A DNA stretch of 64,000 nt from Desulfuromonas sp. AOP6 (GTDB lineage: Bacteria; Desulfobacterota; Desulfuromonadia; Desulfuromonadales; SZUA-540), in NCBI RefSeq assembly GCF_009731355.2, contig NZ_AP022810.1, positions 930,001 through 994,000 of the forward strand. Reading direction: 5' to 3'. The notes below the pieces were generated by a model. That model did not search any database. It was not told where the DNA came from and saw nothing but the letters and a program-made list of their open reading frames with translations. A program made the position numbers and the translations under genes. Below are positions 35,366-49,063 of the stretch, in pieces. Position 1 is the first letter of the stretch, and each line of letters opens with the position of its first letter.

Positions 35366-35668
35366 ATGAAAATAAACGTCGACCCGCAAATCCTTCTCTC
35401 ACAGGCCAATGCCAAAGCACCGACCAAAAACGTCAAGCGAGACGATCCCGAGGCGCTCAAAAAGACCTGCCAGGAATTCGAAGCCATCTTCCTCGCCTCC
35501 ATGTTCAAGGCGATGCGCCAGTCCGTCCCGCAAGGGGGCCTTATCGAAAAAGGCAATGCTGACGAAATTTATCAGAGCCTGCTCGATCAGGAAATCGCCA
35601 CGCAAGCGTCCAAAGGGCAAGGGATGGGTATTGCCGAGGTGCTGTATCGGCAGCTTTCATCCAAATAA
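35366..35668 (+). CDS. flgJ: Rod-binding protein FlgJ, muramidase domain absent
   Basis: The 100 residues match only the N-terminal rod-binding domain of FlgJ: LKKTCQEFEAIFLASMFKAMRQSVP and IYQSLLDQEIATQASKGQGMGIAEVLYRQL. The C-terminal peptidoglycan hydrolase domain of the enterobacterial protein is missing, as in many non-gamma bacteria, so another enzyme must open the wall for the rod. It caps the rod during growth. It is the last gene before a base-composition change. Confidence 0.93.
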   Translation: MKINVDPQILLSQANAKAPTKNVKRDDPEALKKTCQEFEAIFLASMFKAMRQSVPQGGLIEKGNADEIYQSLLDQEIATQASKGQGMGIAEVLYRQLSSK

Positions 35669-35751: not shown

Positions 35752-38700
35752 ATGAAAAAAAAAGCATTAGTTCTCACCAATCATCTCCATTCTTTTGCAG
35801 GTTCTGAAATCCTTGCCCTAGAGGTTGCGGAAACCTTGGTTAGGCTTGGTTTTGATGTATTGATTTACTGCAATGCTTTAGCACCTGACATCGCCAAGCA
35901 CACTTTCCCCGAGATTTCGCTTTCAGATTCAGATACGCGCCCAAATTTTTTTGAATATGACTTTGTGTGGATGCATCATTTAGTTGCGCCATTATGTTTG
36001 CCTGAAAATCTCCCCGATTTTGAAAAAAATCAGGTTATAGTTTCAGCACATCTTTCACCTTACGAAGAATTTGAGCATATTGGCTTGGGGCTCGCTAAGG
36101 ACATTGGAGCCCAGATTTGTTCCAACAGTACAGAAACTGCAAGAGCCATATCTCATTATGTCGAAAACCAAGATGTGTTTAATTTCTTTAATGCCTGTAG
36201 CCCATCATTCTGGTCAGCCAGTCCTGTTGCAGCCCAATCCTTAAAAAAAGTATTGCTAGTTTCCAATCATTTGCCTCAAGAGTTAATCGAGTTGCAAAAA
36301 CTTACGAGTCTTTGTGATGTTGAATTCACTCACATTGGTAATGTTGGTAAGTACACACGCTTGCGCCCTCATCATATTGAAGAACATGATGCTGTTATAA
36401 CAATTGGAAAAACAGTTCAAAATAGCCTTCTTATGGGAAAGCCTGTTTTTGTTTACGATAAATTCGGTGGACCTGGTTGGTTAAGTGAGAAGAACTTTTA
36501 CAGGGCAGAGGAATATAATTTTTCCGGAAGGTGTTGTAATCAAAAACTTGAACCAGAAGAAATTGCTAAAAATCTTAAAGAAAAATTTCAGGAGGCTCAA
36601 GAATTCGTATTAAATTTAAAAGACAAAATAAAAACAAAATATTGTCTTGAAACCTTTATTAAAAAACGCATTGAGTGTGGTTCTTATAATAAGAATATTG
36701 AGACTTTAATAAATTCTTTACAAAAATTAAAGCCACATTCAGTGGTGATTAGAAAACTGTACAAAGGGTCAATGTATCAACAAAAATCAAATAATAGACA
36801 TTTAATATTAAAGGGTGAGGCTCTGTTTAAAGAAGGTAACTATGATAAATCTAAAAAATATTTTGTTAACGCAATAAAAGATGATTCTTCAAATATAGAA
36901 GCCCTTAATAACTTAGGGGTTGTTGCTATGCAAAATGGAGAGTTTGACGAGGCAAAAAATCTATTTAATTGCTGTCTTTATATTGATCCATTTTTTGGAG
37001 ATGCTTCCGAGAACTTGCGCTTCTTGTTGTCTTTGGAAACAGGTAAAAATGATGAAGAAGCGAATAAAGTTAGATGTCTTTGCGATGAAGGAGAAGCCTT
37101 TTTTCAACAAGGAAATTTCAGTGAAGCGATTAACTGTTTCTTAAAAATGCTAGAATTGAACCAGGAAAATGTCGAAGCCTTAAATAATCTAGGTGTCATT
37201 GCCTATCAGCAAAAGAATTTAAGCCGAGCTAAAGAATTCTTTAGACGATGTACTCAAATTGACCCTGATTTTAAAGAGGCTTCTGAAAATCTAGAGATGT
37301 GTAAACGTGAGGCTGAGTTTACGGATGCAGATATCAGCCATGAGAATAAAAAGTCATATTTTTCCATTATCACTTGCAGTGTTGATGATACAAAATTTTC
37401 ACGACTTCAGTCGAGCCTGAATCAATCTTTTTCGGAACCTTTCGAATTAATTCGCATCCCTGACGCTCAATCTTTATGTGAGGGCTATAATCGTGGTATC
37501 CGTGAAGCCCGAGGTGATGTGCTTGTTTTTTGCCACGACGATATCGAATTTTTTAACGAGAATCTCGGGAGTCGACTGCATCAAAGTTTAGAAAGCTGCG
37601 ATATTGTCGGAGTGGCGGGAACAAGTAGGCTTGTCGAGGGTAACTGGATAGCGGCAGGCCACCCCTACATTCACGGGCAGGTCGCTCATTTGACGAAAGG
37701 CAAAGCCGATACCTATGAGCTTTGTATCTATGGCAATGGCCGCGATCCTGAACTTGTGCCGGGGATTCAGGCCCTCGATGGCCTTTTTTTTGCGGTGCGG
37801 CGGGATGTGTTTAAGGAAGTTTCCTTTGATGAGGATCTTTTTGATGGGTTCCACCTGTATGACCTGGATTTTACTTATACTGCCTTTTTAAAAGGCTATC
37901 GGATTGCGGTTGACCATCGAATTAATGTGCTCCATTCCTCCGCAGGGAATTATAGTGAAGATTGGAGTAGATATTTTAAGCGGTTCAATACAAAGCATTC
38001 TCATGTTTTGGAGAAGAAAAATTCTTTCTCTTTGACAAGGTTTAAAGGCCTTCGATTGGAAACGAGGCCCGCAGTCAAGCGAGAAATGAAGCGATATGGT
38101 GAATATCGGCGGGTCGAGATAGTCGCGAGTGAAAATAAAGTTTCCGGTGTTGAGTTGCGTATGACTCAAGATGGTCGGTCTGTTGACCTACCCTTTGGTG
38201 ATTCTGAAATTGATTTCTTTCGTATCACGGGGGAGGTTAAGCTTTTGCCTGAAATCATCCCCTTGATGAATGCTGTCAACCGGGTGTGCAGACATGGCGC
38301 CATGCTAGAAATAGTGCAAAATGGCAGGGTTGGAGATGTGGACGGGGAATGGCCTATTCATGACTGTTTTAGTCTCTCAATAACTGAGCCGGGCTATTAT
38401 GGGTTCGCAAAAGAAAAAGGTTTTAGAGGCCAATTCACAATTGTTAACAATTTTTTTGGTAAGCATAAAACAGGAGAAAGAGTCGTCGAATTTCACTATC
38501 AAATAATAAAGCATGTAGTGGAAAAATTACCATCAATATTCGAGAATAAAAACAAGCTTGATATTAATTCAAACGCATTACCAAACTCTTTTTCAAATAA
38601 TCCGAAATTTTCAATAATAGTTCCGCACTATCAGGGGTCAGTTTCACACAAAAAGTTTATTGAAGGTATTAATTCAATACTATGCCAATCATTTAAAGAT

Positions 38701-39201
38701 TTCGAAATACTCTGTTACCATGATGGTCCTTTGTTAGATGCATCCTGCCAATTTCCCATTAAAATTATGCCAACTAAACAAAGGTACAATAACTGGGGGC
38801 ATTCTCTTAGGGACCTTGGTATAAAGCAAGCAAGGGGAGAATACATCATTCACTTTAATCCTGATAATGTTCTTTATCCTAATGCTTTAAAAATTTTATC
38901 AGCTGTTGACAGTGATATTATTATTTTTCCTGTGAAAATGATGGGTTTAGAGAGGAATGGCGAGCTCCTGTATTATTCTAATCCTAGAAATTATGAAAAA
39001 TTTGAAATTTTACGTGGCAAGCCTCTTGTTTTTGCAAATATCGATTGCATGCAGTTTGTAATGAGAAGGAGCCGCTGGCTTGAGGTTGGGGGGTGGTTTG
39101 ATACGCGAGAGACCTCGGATGGATTTATGTACCCTTTGTTTGCTGAAAAGTTTGGACCACCTGCCTACGTTAGTGGAGCCCCCTTGGGTGAACACTGGTA
39201 A
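35752..39201 (+). CDS. Large multidomain glycosyltransferase with TPR repeats (candidate flagellin glycosyltransferase)
   Basis: The 1149 residues read as a fusion. Residues 1-330 resemble a GT-B-like glycosyltransferase (KKALVLTNHLHSFAGSEILALEVAETL; GKTVQNSLLMGKPVFVYDKFGGPGWL). Two TPR pairs follow (about 350-420 and 445-515, each with EALNNLGV). About 535-800 is a GT-A domain (FSIITCSVDD, LCEGYNRGIREARGDVLVFCHDDIEFF) with an HDD acidic motif. About 950-1149 is a second GT-2-like domain (FSIIVPHYQGS, KQARGEYIIHFNPDNVLYPNALKIL). The gene is visibly AT-rich compared with its neighbours, with a more GC-rich middle, which suggests assembly from transferred parts. Its place between flgJ and flgM suggests flagellin or hook-protein glycosylation; the sugar and acceptor cannot be read. 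Confidence 0.8.
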   Translation: MKKKALVLTNHLHSFAGSEILALEVAETLVRLGFDVLIYCNALAPDIAKHTFPEISLSDSDTRPNFFEYDFVWMHHLVAPLCLPENLPDFEKNQVIVSAHLSPYEEFEHIGLGLAKDIGAQICSNSTETARAISHYVENQDVFNFFNACSPSFWSASPVAAQSLKKVLLVSNHLPQELIELQKLTSLCDVEFTHIGNVGKYTRLRPHHIEEHDAVITIGKTVQNSLLMGKPVFVYDKFGGPGWLSEKNFYRAEEYNFSGRCCNQKLEPEEIAKNLKEKFQEAQEFVLNLKDKIKTKYCLETFIKKRIECGSYNKNIETLINSLQKLKPHSVVIRKLYKGSMYQQKSNNRHLILKGEALFKEGNYDKSKKYFVNAIKDDSSNIEALNNLGVVAMQNGEFDEAKNLFNCCLYIDPFFGDASENLRFLLSLETGKNDEEANKVRCLCDEGEAFFQQGNFSEAINCFLKMLELNQENVEALNNLGVIAYQQKNLSRAKEFFRRCTQIDPDFKEASENLEMCKREAEFTDADISHENKKSYFSIITCSVDDTKFSRLQSSLNQSFSEPFELIRIPDAQSLCEGYNRGIREARGDVLVFCHDDIEFFNENLGSRLHQSLESCDIVGVAGTSRLVEGNWIAAGHPYIHGQVAHLTKGKADTYELCIYGNGRDPELVPGIQALDGLFFAVRRDVFKEVSFDEDLFDGFHLYDLDFTYTAFLKGYRIAVDHRINVLHSSAGNYSEDWSRYFKRFNTKHSHVLEKKNSFSLTRFKGLRLETRPAVKREMKRYGEYRRVEIVASENKVSGVELRMTQDGRSVDLPFGDSEIDFFRITGEVKLLPEIIPLMNAVNRVCRHGAMLEIVQNGRVGDVDGEWPIHDCFSLSITEPGYYGFAKEKGFRGQFTIVNNFFGKHKTGERVVEFHYQIIKHVVEKLPSIFENKNKLDINSNALPNSFSNNPKFSIIVPHYQGSVSHKKFIEGINSILCQSFKDFEILCYHDGPLLDASCQFPIKIMPTKQRYNNWGHSLRDLGIKQARGEYIIHFNPDNVLYPNALKILSAVDSDIIIFPVKMMGLERNGELLYYSNPRNYEKFEILRGKPLVFANIDCMQFVMRRSRWLEVGGWFDTRETSDGFMYPLFAEKFGPPAYVSGAPLGEHW

Positions 39202-39222
39202 AATTTTCGCGTTGCTTTGAAT

Positions 39223-39239
39223 CGCCTCTCCATGAGGCG
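39223..39239 (+). terminator. Weak terminator after the large glycosyltransferase
   Basis: CGCCTC and GAGGCG pair over a five-base loop (39223-39239), followed by a pyrimidine-rich stretch with a T7 run about 15 bases on. The stem is short, so confidence is modest, but it separates the gene from the sigma-28 promoter of flgM. Confidence 0.45.
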
Positions 39240-39264
39240 CTTCTTCTTTCCTCTATTTTTTTCC

Positions 39265-39292
39265 TAAAGTTCCCACCACATCCCACCGATAA
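39265..39292 (+). promoter_or_regulatory. Sigma-28 (FliA) promoter for flgM-flgN-flgK-flgL-csrA-fliW
   Basis: TAAA (39265-39268), 16 bases, then ACCGATAA (39285-39292) matches the FliA consensus TAAA-N15-GCCGATAA with one base change. Spacing equals that of the flagellin promoter in this window. Transcription would start near 39300, about 80 bases before flgM. Confidence 0.75.
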
Positions 39293-39377
39293 GACAGGCA
39301 AGAGCAAGTATGTCGCTTAGATGACATGAACCTCTGTTAGCCTTAAATGAATAATTTTTATCGATAAGGGGATGATT

Positions 39378-39749
39378 ATGACGATCAAAATTTCTGGAGA
39401 CAAAGGGCTCGGCCCTCTCGACGGGTTGAAGAAAAGCCAGAAGACGGCAGCCGCAGGCGACAAGGCCAAGGCGGGCGCGGCGGACAAAGTGAGCTTTTCC
39501 TCGGCCCTGCAGCAGGCAGCCCAGGCCCAGGAAACAAAAGGCGCGGCGCGCACCGAGTCCATGGAGAAAGTCGCTTTCTCTCCCCTTATCATGGAGATGA
39601 GCCATATTCAGGACAGCGGCACTTCTGAGGTGTCCGCTCGCCAACAGAAGATCGATGAACTTAAGGCGCAGATCGCCGATGGTTCTTACCAGCCTGATCT
39701 TAATAAAGTGGCGGCCAGCCTGCTCAAGTTCGTCACCGGGGAGAAATGA
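39378..39749 (+). CDS. flgM: Anti-sigma-28 factor FlgM
   Basis: FlgM binds and inhibits FliA until exported after hook completion. I start at the ATG at 39378, six bases after AAGGGG; an ATG at 39372 is too close to that site. The 123 residues have a disordered N-terminus (KISGDKGLGPLD) and a C-terminal sigma-binding helix region (VSARQQKIDELKAQIADGSYQPDLNKVAASLLKFV), the FlgM signature. A FliA-type promoter upstream predicts feedback on its own target. Confidence 0.93.
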   Translation: MTIKISGDKGLGPLDGLKKSQKTAAAGDKAKAGAADKVSFSSALQQAAQAQETKGAARTESMEKVAFSPLIMEMSHIQDSGTSEVSARQQKIDELKAQIADGSYQPDLNKVAASLLKFVTGEK

Positions 39750-43279: not shown

Positions 43280-45295
43280 ATGGGAAGAAAAAATAGGCAG
43301 ATCAAGACTCCCAGAAAAGAGAGTTCAGATGCCGTGCTGGTGAGCAAAGCCATGGACCTCTTCGGTCAGGGCGCCGTGACCCAGGCCATCTCTCTGCTGT
43401 CGGGTGAGGTGAACAGGGGAGGTAATCAGGCCAAGCTCTGGTATGCTCTTGGCTATATCTATCAGGGGGCAGGCAGGGACGAAGACGCCTTGCATTCCTA
43501 TAAGGAGGCTCTTGCGGCAGAGCCTTCGTTGGCGGAAGCCTGGAACAATCTCGGCTTGCTTTATGCGAAACGCGGCCGCAGGGCAGAGGCGGAAAATGCT
43601 TTTAAGCAAGCCTTGCAACATTCGGCCGGGATGCATGATGCGAGCATCAATTTAGGCCGTCTTCTTGTTGAGCAGGGTAGAGCGAAAGAGGCCGTCACGA
43701 TTTACCAGACGGCTCTCACGTCTTCGGATAAACCTGCGCAGCTCTGTTATGCCCTGGCGGTTGCCTACCGGGCTGTCAACCGCCCTGGGCAGGCTATTGT
43801 CTATCTGGAAGAAGCCCTGAGTCTTGCCCCTGATTATTCGCCTGGGCACAATCTCATGGGCGTTGTTCTCATGGATATGGGCATGGCCGAGGAGGCCCTG
43901 TCCCATTTCCATAAAGCTATCGAGATTACTCCCGACGATGATGGGCCACGGACAAACCTGGCCGGGCTGCTTCAGTCCCTGGGGAGGTTCCAGGAAGCGT
44001 ATGAGCAGGCCAGAGAGGCTGTTGCCCTGGCCCCTGAAAAGCCCCTGATTCACTCCAATCTGTTGTTTCTCATGAATTATCAGGAAGCCCTGAGTCGTGA
44101 TGAAATCTATGCCGAGCAACGTCGATGGAACGAACGCCATGCCTTGCCCGTGCTCCAGAAATCGGTGAGGCCTGAAACCGAACTGACGCGGGACAAAAAG
44201 CTCAGGATTGGCTATGTCTCGCCAGATTTCCGCTTCCACCCGGTCTGCTTCTTTATCACTCCCATCCTTTCCGGTTTTGACCGCAGTCACTTTGAAGTGT
44301 TCTGTTACTCCAATGTTTCCCGTCCGGATCAACAGACCGAAAAAATGAAAGAGTGGGCAACAGGTTGGCGGGACATCTGCGGGGTCCCTGATGAAGAGGT
44401 GGCCCAATGGATTCGTGACGATCGGATCGATATTCTGGTTGACCTTGCTGGACATTCTGGCGACAACCGGCTCCTGGTATTTGCCCATAAGGCGGCCCCA
44501 GTACAAATCACCTTTCTGGGGAACCCTGATGGGACCGGCATGGATGCCATGGATTACCGGATTACCGACTCCTGGTGTGATCCTGTCGGGCTGACGGAGT
44601 GTTTCCATGCCGAGAAATTGCTGCGCCTGCCTGGAAATTTTTTCTGCTATGCGCCGCCGTCCCCCGCGCCGGATATAGGCCCGCTTCCTTGTAGGCAAAA
44701 TGGCTACGTCACCTTTGGCAGTTTTAACAATTTTTCAAAAATTTCAGAAAATCTCCTCGGGATCTGGTCTGAAATTATGCAGGGTGTTCCCGAATCCCGT
44801 CTGGTATTTCAGGCTAAGCCTCTGACGGACAAGGGCAAGGTTTTAGAGCTGAAACGGTTCTTTGAAAGCAGAGGCGTCGCCGGCGATCGGATTCTGGCGA
44901 AGGGGAATACTTCTATTTCAGAGCATTTGAAATTAGTGACTCAAGTGGATATCGCCTTGGACAGCTTCCCTTGGAATGGGCATACGACCACCTGTCATAC
45001 CCTCTGGATGGGAGTGCCTGTCGTTTCCATGGCTGGTGAACGGGGGATATCTAGAATGGGTCTTTCTATTCTAGGCGGGCTGGGCCTTGAAAGGTTCGTT
45101 GCCTGCAATGTTTCTGACTATGTAAAGACAGCTGTGGACCTGAGTGGCAACCCAGGAGTTCTTGAGAACTTTCGCAAAAATATCCGCAGTGAAATTTTGA
45201 ATTCATCCTGGGGTAACTCCCTAACATATAACGAAACCCTGGAAAATCTGTTTCGTGATGTCTGGATAAAATATTGTGTGGAACATCAGGGATAA
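43280..45295 (+). CDS. TPR/OGT-like (SPINDLY family, GT41) protein glycosyltransferase
   Basis: The 671 residues have five to seven N-terminal TPR units (about 15-290: AWNNLGLLYAKRGRRAEAENAFKQAL and similar). A family-41 glycosyltransferase region follows (about 305-660), starting LRIGYVSPDFRFHPVCFF, with ILVDLAGHSGDNRLLVFAHKAAPVQITFLGNPDGTGMDAMDYRITD and VDIALDSFPWNGHTTTCHTLWMGVPVVSMAGE. These match the O-linked N-acetylglucosamine transferase catalytic region. Lying between fliW and flagellin, it is a good candidate for cytoplasmic O-glycosylation of flagellin, as shown for GT41-like enzymes in other bacteria; the substrate here is inferred. Confidence 0.9.
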   Translation: MGRKNRQIKTPRKESSDAVLVSKAMDLFGQGAVTQAISLLSGEVNRGGNQAKLWYALGYIYQGAGRDEDALHSYKEALAAEPSLAEAWNNLGLLYAKRGRRAEAENAFKQALQHSAGMHDASINLGRLLVEQGRAKEAVTIYQTALTSSDKPAQLCYALAVAYRAVNRPGQAIVYLEEALSLAPDYSPGHNLMGVVLMDMGMAEEALSHFHKAIEITPDDDGPRTNLAGLLQSLGRFQEAYEQAREAVALAPEKPLIHSNLLFLMNYQEALSRDEIYAEQRRWNERHALPVLQKSVRPETELTRDKKLRIGYVSPDFRFHPVCFFITPILSGFDRSHFEVFCYSNVSRPDQQTEKMKEWATGWRDICGVPDEEVAQWIRDDRIDILVDLAGHSGDNRLLVFAHKAAPVQITFLGNPDGTGMDAMDYRITDSWCDPVGLTECFHAEKLLRLPGNFFCYAPPSPAPDIGPLPCRQNGYVTFGSFNNFSKISENLLGIWSEIMQGVPESRLVFQAKPLTDKGKVLELKRFFESRGVAGDRILAKGNTSISEHLKLVTQVDIALDSFPWNGHTTTCHTLWMGVPVVSMAGERGISRMGLSILGGLGLERFVACNVSDYVKTAVDLSGNPGVLENFRKNIRSEILNSSWGNSLTYNETLENLFRDVWIKYCVEHQG

Positions 45296-45494: not shown

Positions 45495-46319
45495 ATGGCA
45501 CTCGTAATCAACAGCAATATCGGTTCTCTCAACGCTCAACGCAATCTGAACTCCACTTCAAAAGGCATGAGCACCGCCATGCAGCGCCTCTCCTCGGGCC
45601 TGCGTATCAACAGCGCCAAGGATGACGCCGCCGGTCTGGCCATTTCCGACCGCATGACCGCCCAGATCCGCGGACTCAATCAGGCTGCCCGTAACGCTAA
45701 CGACGGTATCTCTCTGGCGCAGACTGCTGAAGGCGCTCTCTCTGAGACCACCAACATTCTGCAGCGCATGCGTGAACTGTCTGTTCAGTCAGCCAACGCC
45801 ACCAACTCTACGACTGACCGCGCTTCTCTGGATGCCGAATTCAAGCAGTTGATTTCTGAAATTGACCGTATCGCCACTGACACCGAGTTCAACGGCACCA
45901 AACTCCTCGACGGTACTTTTACCGCCCAGGCTTTCCAGGTCGGTGCAGATTCGGGTCAGACCATTTCTGTGGGAATTGCTGGTGCTACCGCTACGGCTCT
46001 CAGTGTTACTGACGCAGCTATTGGTGTTGACACTGCTTCAGGCGCCAGCGCATCTATTGCTGCCATCGATTCGGCTATCTCTACTGTCGACACCATCCGT
46101 GGCGACCTGGGTGCCGTGCAGAACCGTTTCGAGTCTACCATCGCCAACCTGCAGAATGTTTCTGAAAACGTCTCCGCTGCCCGCTCCCGCATCCTGGATG
46201 CGGACATCGCGGCCGAAACGTCCACAATGACCAAGTACAACATCCTGCAGCAGGCAGGGGTTTCGATCCTGGCTCAGGCCAACCAGACCCCTCAGCTGGC
46301 TCTTTCTCTTCTCGGTTAA
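45495..46319 (+). CDS. fliC: Flagellin FliC
   Basis: Flagellin is the filament subunit. The 274 residues have the N-terminal D0/D1 region ([51 protein letters not shown]), a short central part rich in Ala, Ser and Thr (about 145-195) with no large D2/D3 domains, and the C-terminal [56 protein letters not shown]. The Ser/Thr-rich centre gives many possible O-glycosylation sites, relevant to the two glycosyltransferases nearby. Confidence 0.98.
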
Positions 46320-48571: not shown

Positions 48572-49063
48572 ATGACCAACGCGATGAGCATGGAAGACAG
48601 GTTGCTTGAAAAAGGAGAGACCTTTTTTGCGAAAGGATCCCTCGATCTGGCCGTACAGATGTTTCGAGAGGTGTTGGATTTGAATCCACGCCGAAAAGAG
48701 GCGCACAACAATCTGGGGTGCGTTTTTTTCGAACAGGGAGTGCTGGACAAGGCGGAAGAGAATCTTCTCAGGGCTTATGCTCAGGACTGTGACTATCTCA
48801 ATGCCGTCGATAACCTCTCTGAACTGTACAAGCAGATGAAAAATCATCGTCGTGAACTGTTCTTTCGGCAGGAGGCAGTCAAAATCGAACAGGATAATCC
48901 TGCCCGCTGGAATGCTCTGGCGCTGTGCTGGCTTGAACTGGGCAATGCCGCCGAAGTGCAGAAGGCTTTTGAGAAATCCCTTTCTCTCCATGGTGACCAG
49001 CCGCAGATTCGTACCTTGCTTGACGAACTGGTCTCAATCGGGGCTGAAGCCGCCGCCGTGTGA
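48572..49063 (+). CDS. Small TPR protein in the filament-cap operon
   Basis: The 163 residues consist of three to four TPR units (LEKGETFFAKGSLDLAVQMFREVLDLNPRRKEAHNNLGCVFFEQGVLDKAEENLLRAY). No signal peptide is seen, so it is probably cytoplasmic. It lies between fliS and a putative chaperone. It may be an adaptor in filament assembly or modification, which is inference; TPR units alone do not define a function. Confidence 0.8.
   Translation: MTNAMSMEDRLLEKGETFFAKGSLDLAVQMFREVLDLNPRRKEAHNNLGCVFFEQGVLDKAEENLLRAYAQDCDYLNAVDNLSELYKQMKNHRRELFFRQEAVKIEQDNPARWNALALCWLELGNAAEVQKAFEKSLSLHGDQPQIRTLLDELVSIGAEAAAV

Follow-up and report, generated by a model that had tools for sequence, protein, structure and literature searches.

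What a giant, multidomain glycosyltransferase might do inside a flagellar gene cluster is the question raised by the interval between flgJ and flgM in Desulfuromonas sp. AOP6. We examined the gene and its site within a 64-kb window, the whole stretch of DNA analyzed, together with relatives of the gene, and compared them with the congeners G108 and G107.

A single-copy modular glycosyltransferase gene

The gene is a single uninterrupted frame of 1149 codons (1149 aa plus stop), present in one copy in the AOP6 genome. Its GC content is 38.7%, versus 56.7% for the window, and no other stretch of its length in the 64 kb is lower. The coordinates of the gene, its domains, and the neighboring features are given in Table 1. 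A sequence-only reading had described an open frame of this length encoding a GT-B-like domain, two TPR blocks, a GT-A domain with an HDD motif, and a GT2-like domain with NPDN; the frame is indeed open and all of these parts were found, although the list overlooked a methyltransferase-like module at residues 780 to 910. The domain order is GT-B, duplicated TPRs, PF13712 GT-A, half-methyltransferase tail, and GT2. Checked separately, all three of the parts proposed as glycosyltransferases proved to be such domains, by Pfam or, for the N-terminal part, by a profile of its relatives and AlphaFold2. The fold was modeled for the N-terminal domain only, and the other modules are known from profile matches; a full-length AlphaFold2 run without an alignment gave a pLDDT of 34.5 and was set aside.

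Table 1. Features of the flgJ-flgM interval and its surroundings (positions in the window)
Feature	Position	Strand	Basis
flgJ, left flank	35366..35668	+	ORF list, comparison with relatives
Modular glycosyltransferase gene, 1149 aa plus stop	35752..39201	+	Frame, Pfam matches, single copy
Predicted GT-B domain, GT4-like, residues 1-313; AGSE motif (16-19), IGKTVQ (218-223)	35752..36690	+	Family profile, AlphaFold2, VIA-align
Duplicated TPR unit (~90 residues, two TPRs), the copies 45% identical, residues 345-520	36784..37311	+	Pfam TPR, residues 343-515
GT-A domain PF13712 with HDD	37363..37980	+	Pfam; 67% identical to congeners
Methyltransferase-like tail, C-terminal half of class I methyltransferase, residues about 780-910	38089..38481	+	Profile and hhalign matches of relatives
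GT2 domain with NPDN for acidic motif, residues 954-1149	38611..39198	+	PF00535
Terminator-like hairpin after the gene and ahead of the flgM promoter, GCCTC...GAGGC followed by T-rich sequence	39222..39262	+	Sequence
FliA-type promoter-like sequence TAAAGTTC...ACCGATAAG of flgM	39265..39294	+	Conserved in both congeners
flgM, right flank	39372..39749	+	ORF list
TPR-GT41 gene of the fliW-fliC interval (OGT/SPINDLY-like), probable partner	43280..45295	+	PF13844, 6e-50; discordant history like GT-A
fliC, short 274-aa flagellin, candidate acceptor	45495..46319	+	ORF list, comparison with G108

The N-terminal domain is predicted to be a GT-B glycosyltransferase

Searched alone, the N-terminal domain gave nothing significant in Pfam (PF13439 at E = 0.09, below the cutoff), NCBIfam, or PHROGs. 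PF13439 was matched by five of the six members of its family profile (A2), with a best value of 2.1e-11, and the profile identified HepE (PDB 4xso) at 5.6e-4. The AlphaFold2 model, built from 16 aligned sequences, had a pLDDT of 70 and a pTM of 0.70. Comparison by VIA-align with TarM, BshA, HepE, PimA, and GtfA gave Z scores of 17 to 20 over about 280 aligned residues, including 20.5 for TarM, 19.7 for BshA, 19.4 for HepE, and 17.8 for GtfA, a protein O-GlcNAc transferase. Because the family profile and the fold comparison succeeded where the single-sequence search gave nothing significant, we assign the domain, on the strength of this model, to the GT-B fold of the retaining, GT4-like type.

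The IGKTVQ motif of AOP6 aligns with LGRTTIE of phage homologues, and the usual second Glu of GT4 enzymes, the conserved Glu of the EX7E motif, appears to be replaced by Gln. Four other sequences of this GT-B subgroup, including a stand-alone viral-contig protein, have an IGKTV- or IGKSV-type motif without Glu, so the Glu-less motif may be functional. Relatives of the domain with 30 to 36% identity (tblastn) are found on plasmids of Marinibacterium, Paracoccus, and Azospirillum, where two have recognizable glycan clusters around them (dTDP-rhamnose or other), and further relatives occur in two other genomes of the phylum and on one viral contig. No match was found in phage records (tblastn) or in a first scan of viral contigs.

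Central and C-terminal modules

Judged by sequence motifs, the central GT-A is the only one of the three glycosyltransferase modules that keeps a standard catalytic motif. Its match to PF13712 (Glyco_tranf_2_5) spans residues 538 to 743 and profile positions 1 to 204 of 210, with an E value of 1.1e-26 and 94.3 bits versus a gathering score of 27. The HDD motif occupies residues 595 to 597; CHDDIE is invariant across the three congeners, and the GT-A invariants are kept in the AOP6 protein. The C-terminal GT2 matches PF00535 at residues 954 to 1051 (1.7e-13; 51.3 bits for the whole protein and 31.0 for the domain alone, versus a cutoff of 23.3) and has no DxD-type acidic motif, NPDN standing in its place at residues 1036 to 1039. 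The GT41 domain, PF13844, is absent from the modular protein among the best 25 of 28 Pfam families.

In the congeners, the tail region aligns with class I methyltransferases over their C-terminal half alone. Two relatives matched Methyltransf_11, with E values of 7.5e-4 and 0.013, and hhalign gave a probability of 89%, with PDB 6uv6, a glucose O-methyltransferase, at E = 5.5e-4. The tail alignment (A3) shows no SAM-binding motif I, and the tail is probably an inactive, noncatalytic methyltransferase remnant.

The insertion was found only in this genus among the relatives examined

DNA homology with G108 ends at 35653, within the last flgJ codons, and restarts at 39257, 8 bp before the promoter-like sequence at 39265; these breakpoints agree with the exact insertion between flgJ and the FliA promoter of flgM that had been proposed for the gene. 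The promoter-like element reads TAAAGTTC-CCGATAAG in AOP6, and in each of the three genomes of the genus flgM is preceded by a FliA-type promoter-like sequence, TAAAGTTC...CCGATAAGACAGGCAAGAG. Terminator-like hairpins separate the gene from this sequence, strong ones in G108 and G107. A member of the modular glycosyltransferase family likewise precedes flgM in all three genomes (the flgJ side of G107 lies outside its contig). The site is empty in other relatives: none of 15 in the order has a glycosyltransferase between flgJ and flgM, which are adjacent or one small frame apart, and the protein core has no match in the rest of the order, in the class, or in a 395-genome sample of the phylum.

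Modules and alleles appear to have been exchanged between congeners

The G108 version is 1977 aa long and consists of GT2, B12-binding plus radical SAM, GT2, GT2, TPRs, PF13712, and the tail. G107 (MAG SZUA-540) has the same core, in a gene that ends directly upstream of flgM on a contig starting within it. Only the TPR, GT-A, and tail modules are common to AOP6 and its congeners.

The flagellar proteins pair AOP6 with G108, with identities of 95.5% for FlgK, 94.2% for FlgL, and 88.0% for FlgN; the corresponding values for G108 and G107 are 84.1%, 83.4%, and 68.4%. The glycosyltransferases instead pair G108 with G107: GT-A is 89.6% identical between these two and 67.5% between AOP6 and G108, and GT41 is 79.1% and 67.1% identical, respectively. 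The GT-A tree also groups G108 with G107 (support, 100/99). Vertical descent with ordinary divergence was rejected in view of the 94 to 96% identity of FlgK and FlgL versus 67% for GT-A and GT41, together with the different pairing. The simplest reading of these comparisons is that both AOP6 glycosyltransferase cassettes were replaced by foreign alleles. Since the two would have been replaced together, the GT-A protein and GT41 are suggested to work as a pair. Flagellin itself is almost identical in AOP6 and G108 except for a small variable part; the FliC N termini are 98.6% identical, compared with only 67% for the GT41 protein of the fliW-fliC region.

Nucleotide-sugar genes accompany the modular glycosyltransferase in G108, and none is found in the flgJ-flgM interval of AOP6. 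The G108 island, between flgJ and the 1977-aa gene, contains rfbF, rfbG, rfbH, a 3,5-epimerase, and a sugar epimerase (rfb names read from translations), as well as two radical-SAM proteins, a GT-B, and a methyltransferase. It reads as a set of CDP-3,6-dideoxyhexose genes (L011:12197 to L009:6088), suggesting that the flagella of G108 carry an unusual sugar. RfbH had no match in the AOP6 genome, and NeuB (PF03102) gave only weak partial matches there (best, 2e-10, positions 53 to 238), compared with 2.1e-88 in G108; synthesis of a CDP-dideoxyhexose or nonulosonic acid donor by AOP6 thus found no support.

Two other genes of these flagellar regions are worth recording. G108 has an additional GT2 gene in its fliW-fliC region (L009:18245-19081). 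In AOP6, a small TPR protein encoded at 48572-49063, after fliD-fliS, has repeats like those of the glycosyltransferase TPR unit (28% across 128 aa; E = 3e-13); it is possibly a flagellar TPR adaptor or the source of that unit.

Relatives of the modules at other loci

The nearest GT-A outside the genus (clade support, 100/99) is encoded in an Acidobacteriota MAG, where it adjoins fliC and fliD; that locus also encodes a TPR protein that partly matches GT41. The methyltransferase-like tail was not found in this relative by profile A3. A 1609-aa protein from another family of the phylum (L059:6184-11010) combines radical SAM/SPASM, GT-B, three GT2 domains, and TPRs, its GT-B being of the same family as the AOP6 N-terminal domain, and is encoded 0.65 kb from fliC.

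Of the 37 loci that encode the GT-A, 20 also have a GT41 catalytic domain; these 20 are not phylogenetically independent, about eleven representing one Nitrotoga-type clade. GT41 is fused to the PF13712 GT-A in three betaproteobacterial MAGs. Outside the clade of the AOP6 protein, PF13712/GT41 pairs are mostly not near flagellar genes in the flanks examined (draft contigs); in Gallionella, type II secretion or pilus genes lie nearby. In "Candidatus Nitrotoga" (L017-L023, L026, L036, and L038), an array of three tandem TPR-GT41 genes followed by a PF13712 glycosyltransferase is kept across the genus, with no flagellar genes close by in the flanks examined.

The PF13712 domain also occurs in 80 viral loci. 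In many of these, including about 14 distinct proteins of ~550 aa, the GT-A is followed by a TGSE-family GT-B; both families therefore share one polypeptide in viruses, in the opposite order. Such fusions are found on viral contigs L093, L107, L116, L131, L139, and others; the L131 protein, the only one tested, has no match among PHROGs families.

Proposed role in flagellar glycosylation

We consider it probable that the modular enzyme is a cytoplasmic, TPR-guided glycosyltransferase that decorates a flagellar export substrate, acting with the GT41 protein, and flagellin FliC is the most likely acceptor. A flagellar function is supported by the shared location of the gene in the three genomes and by two independent relatives at flagellar loci. 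FlmG of Caulobacter is a flagellin O-glycosyltransferase consisting of TPR and GT domains (PMC7591256). We infer a TPR-guided role because the TPR domain of FlmG alone binds flagellins, whereas its GT domain does not (PMC7591256). The export substrate would be glycosylated in the cytoplasm, before export, while held by the TPR block as in FlmG. GT41 would place the first residue, and the central GT-A, the module likeliest to be active, would transfer a sugar, probably onto that residue; the GT-B and GT2 modules might add further residues or serve as donor or acceptor adaptors. The sequence-only reading, which overlooked the GT41 gene, had envisaged the transfer of two or three sugars to flagellin or hook proteins: the glycosyltransferase domains and the flagellar position are in keeping with such a transfer, but the number is called into question by the altered catalytic motifs of the outer modules.

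Those altered motifs, Gln for Glu in IGKTVQ and NPDN in GT2, would also fit a single-sugar enzyme in which only the central GT-A is active and the GT-B and GT2 are degenerate passengers of recombination, as would a tail without a SAM motif and a common core limited to TPR, GT-A, and tail. We regard this as possible but doubtful, given that the Glu-less motif recurs in four other members of the GT-B subgroup and may thus be functional, and that the frame is open with no decay. An assembly line on one polypeptide is a still less likely arrangement: the TPR scaffold would hold the subunit while exchangeable glycosyltransferase modules, with radical-SAM modules too in relatives, act in turn. Recombination would shuffle these modules, and joint swapping of the flgJ-flgM and fliW-fliC cassettes would switch the flagellar coat with flagellin nearly constant.

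The acceptor could also lie elsewhere (LPS, capsule, a pilin, or a phage-exposed surface polymer), the flagellar location being due to chance insertion. The plasmid relatives of the N-terminal domain in dTDP-rhamnose or other glycan clusters point that way, and most PF13712 relatives are away from flagellar genes; but such an acceptor is unlikely, because the gene occupies an identical site in three genomes, two other lineages have relatives at flagellar sites, and the gene appears to have been replaced jointly with the fliW-fliC GT41. A recent random fusion or a functionless pseudogene is highly improbable. The gene is very AT rich and chimeric and has a partial methyltransferase domain, yet its 1149 codons are open, the GT-A invariants are intact, and the core has been retained at the same site in three species.

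Flagellar glycan diversity is usually attributed to islands of separate enzymes; in the AOP6 genus, a single modular protein may account for much of it. The modules of this protein change between species whose flagellar proteins are ~95% identical, with flagellin changing little. If its role is cytoplasmic glycosylation of a flagellar substrate, the locus could serve as a model for surface-glycan switching, perhaps under phage pressure. AOP6, G108, and G107 offer a natural three-way comparison, domain by domain. The recurrent pairing of PF13712 with GT41 suggests that bacteria have a general two-enzyme unit for protein O-glycosylation.

Comparison with known systems

The flagellar glycosylation island of Pseudomonas aeruginosa lies between flgL and fliC. 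Like such islands, the AOP6 locus places strain-variable glycosyltransferase genes within the flagellar cluster, and G108 has a full sugar-biosynthesis island; unlike them, it uses the flgJ-flgM site and one giant modular protein rather than a set of single-domain enzymes. In the Aeromonas flagellar glycosylation island (FGI), Fgi-1 is 313 to 327 aa long (PMC7874193). The two-domain phage glycosyltransferases (PF13712 plus TGSE-type, GT4-like) likewise join members of these GT-A and GT-B families in one polypeptide, but in reverse order, in about 550 aa, and with neither TPR nor GT2. GT41 enzymes of the OGT/SPINDLY type share the TPR-glycosyltransferase plan, and one is encoded nearby, whereas the modular protein has no detected GT41 domain. 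As in FlmG, TPRs are joined to a glycosyltransferase in a flagellar setting, with a short flagellin that lacks a large variable domain. FlmG uses pseudaminic acid, whereas the AOP6 genome has no strong NeuB match; FlmG has 596 aa, with N-terminal TPRs and a single C-terminal GT-B, whereas the AOP6 protein has an N-terminal GT-B and central TPRs, followed by GT-A and GT2.
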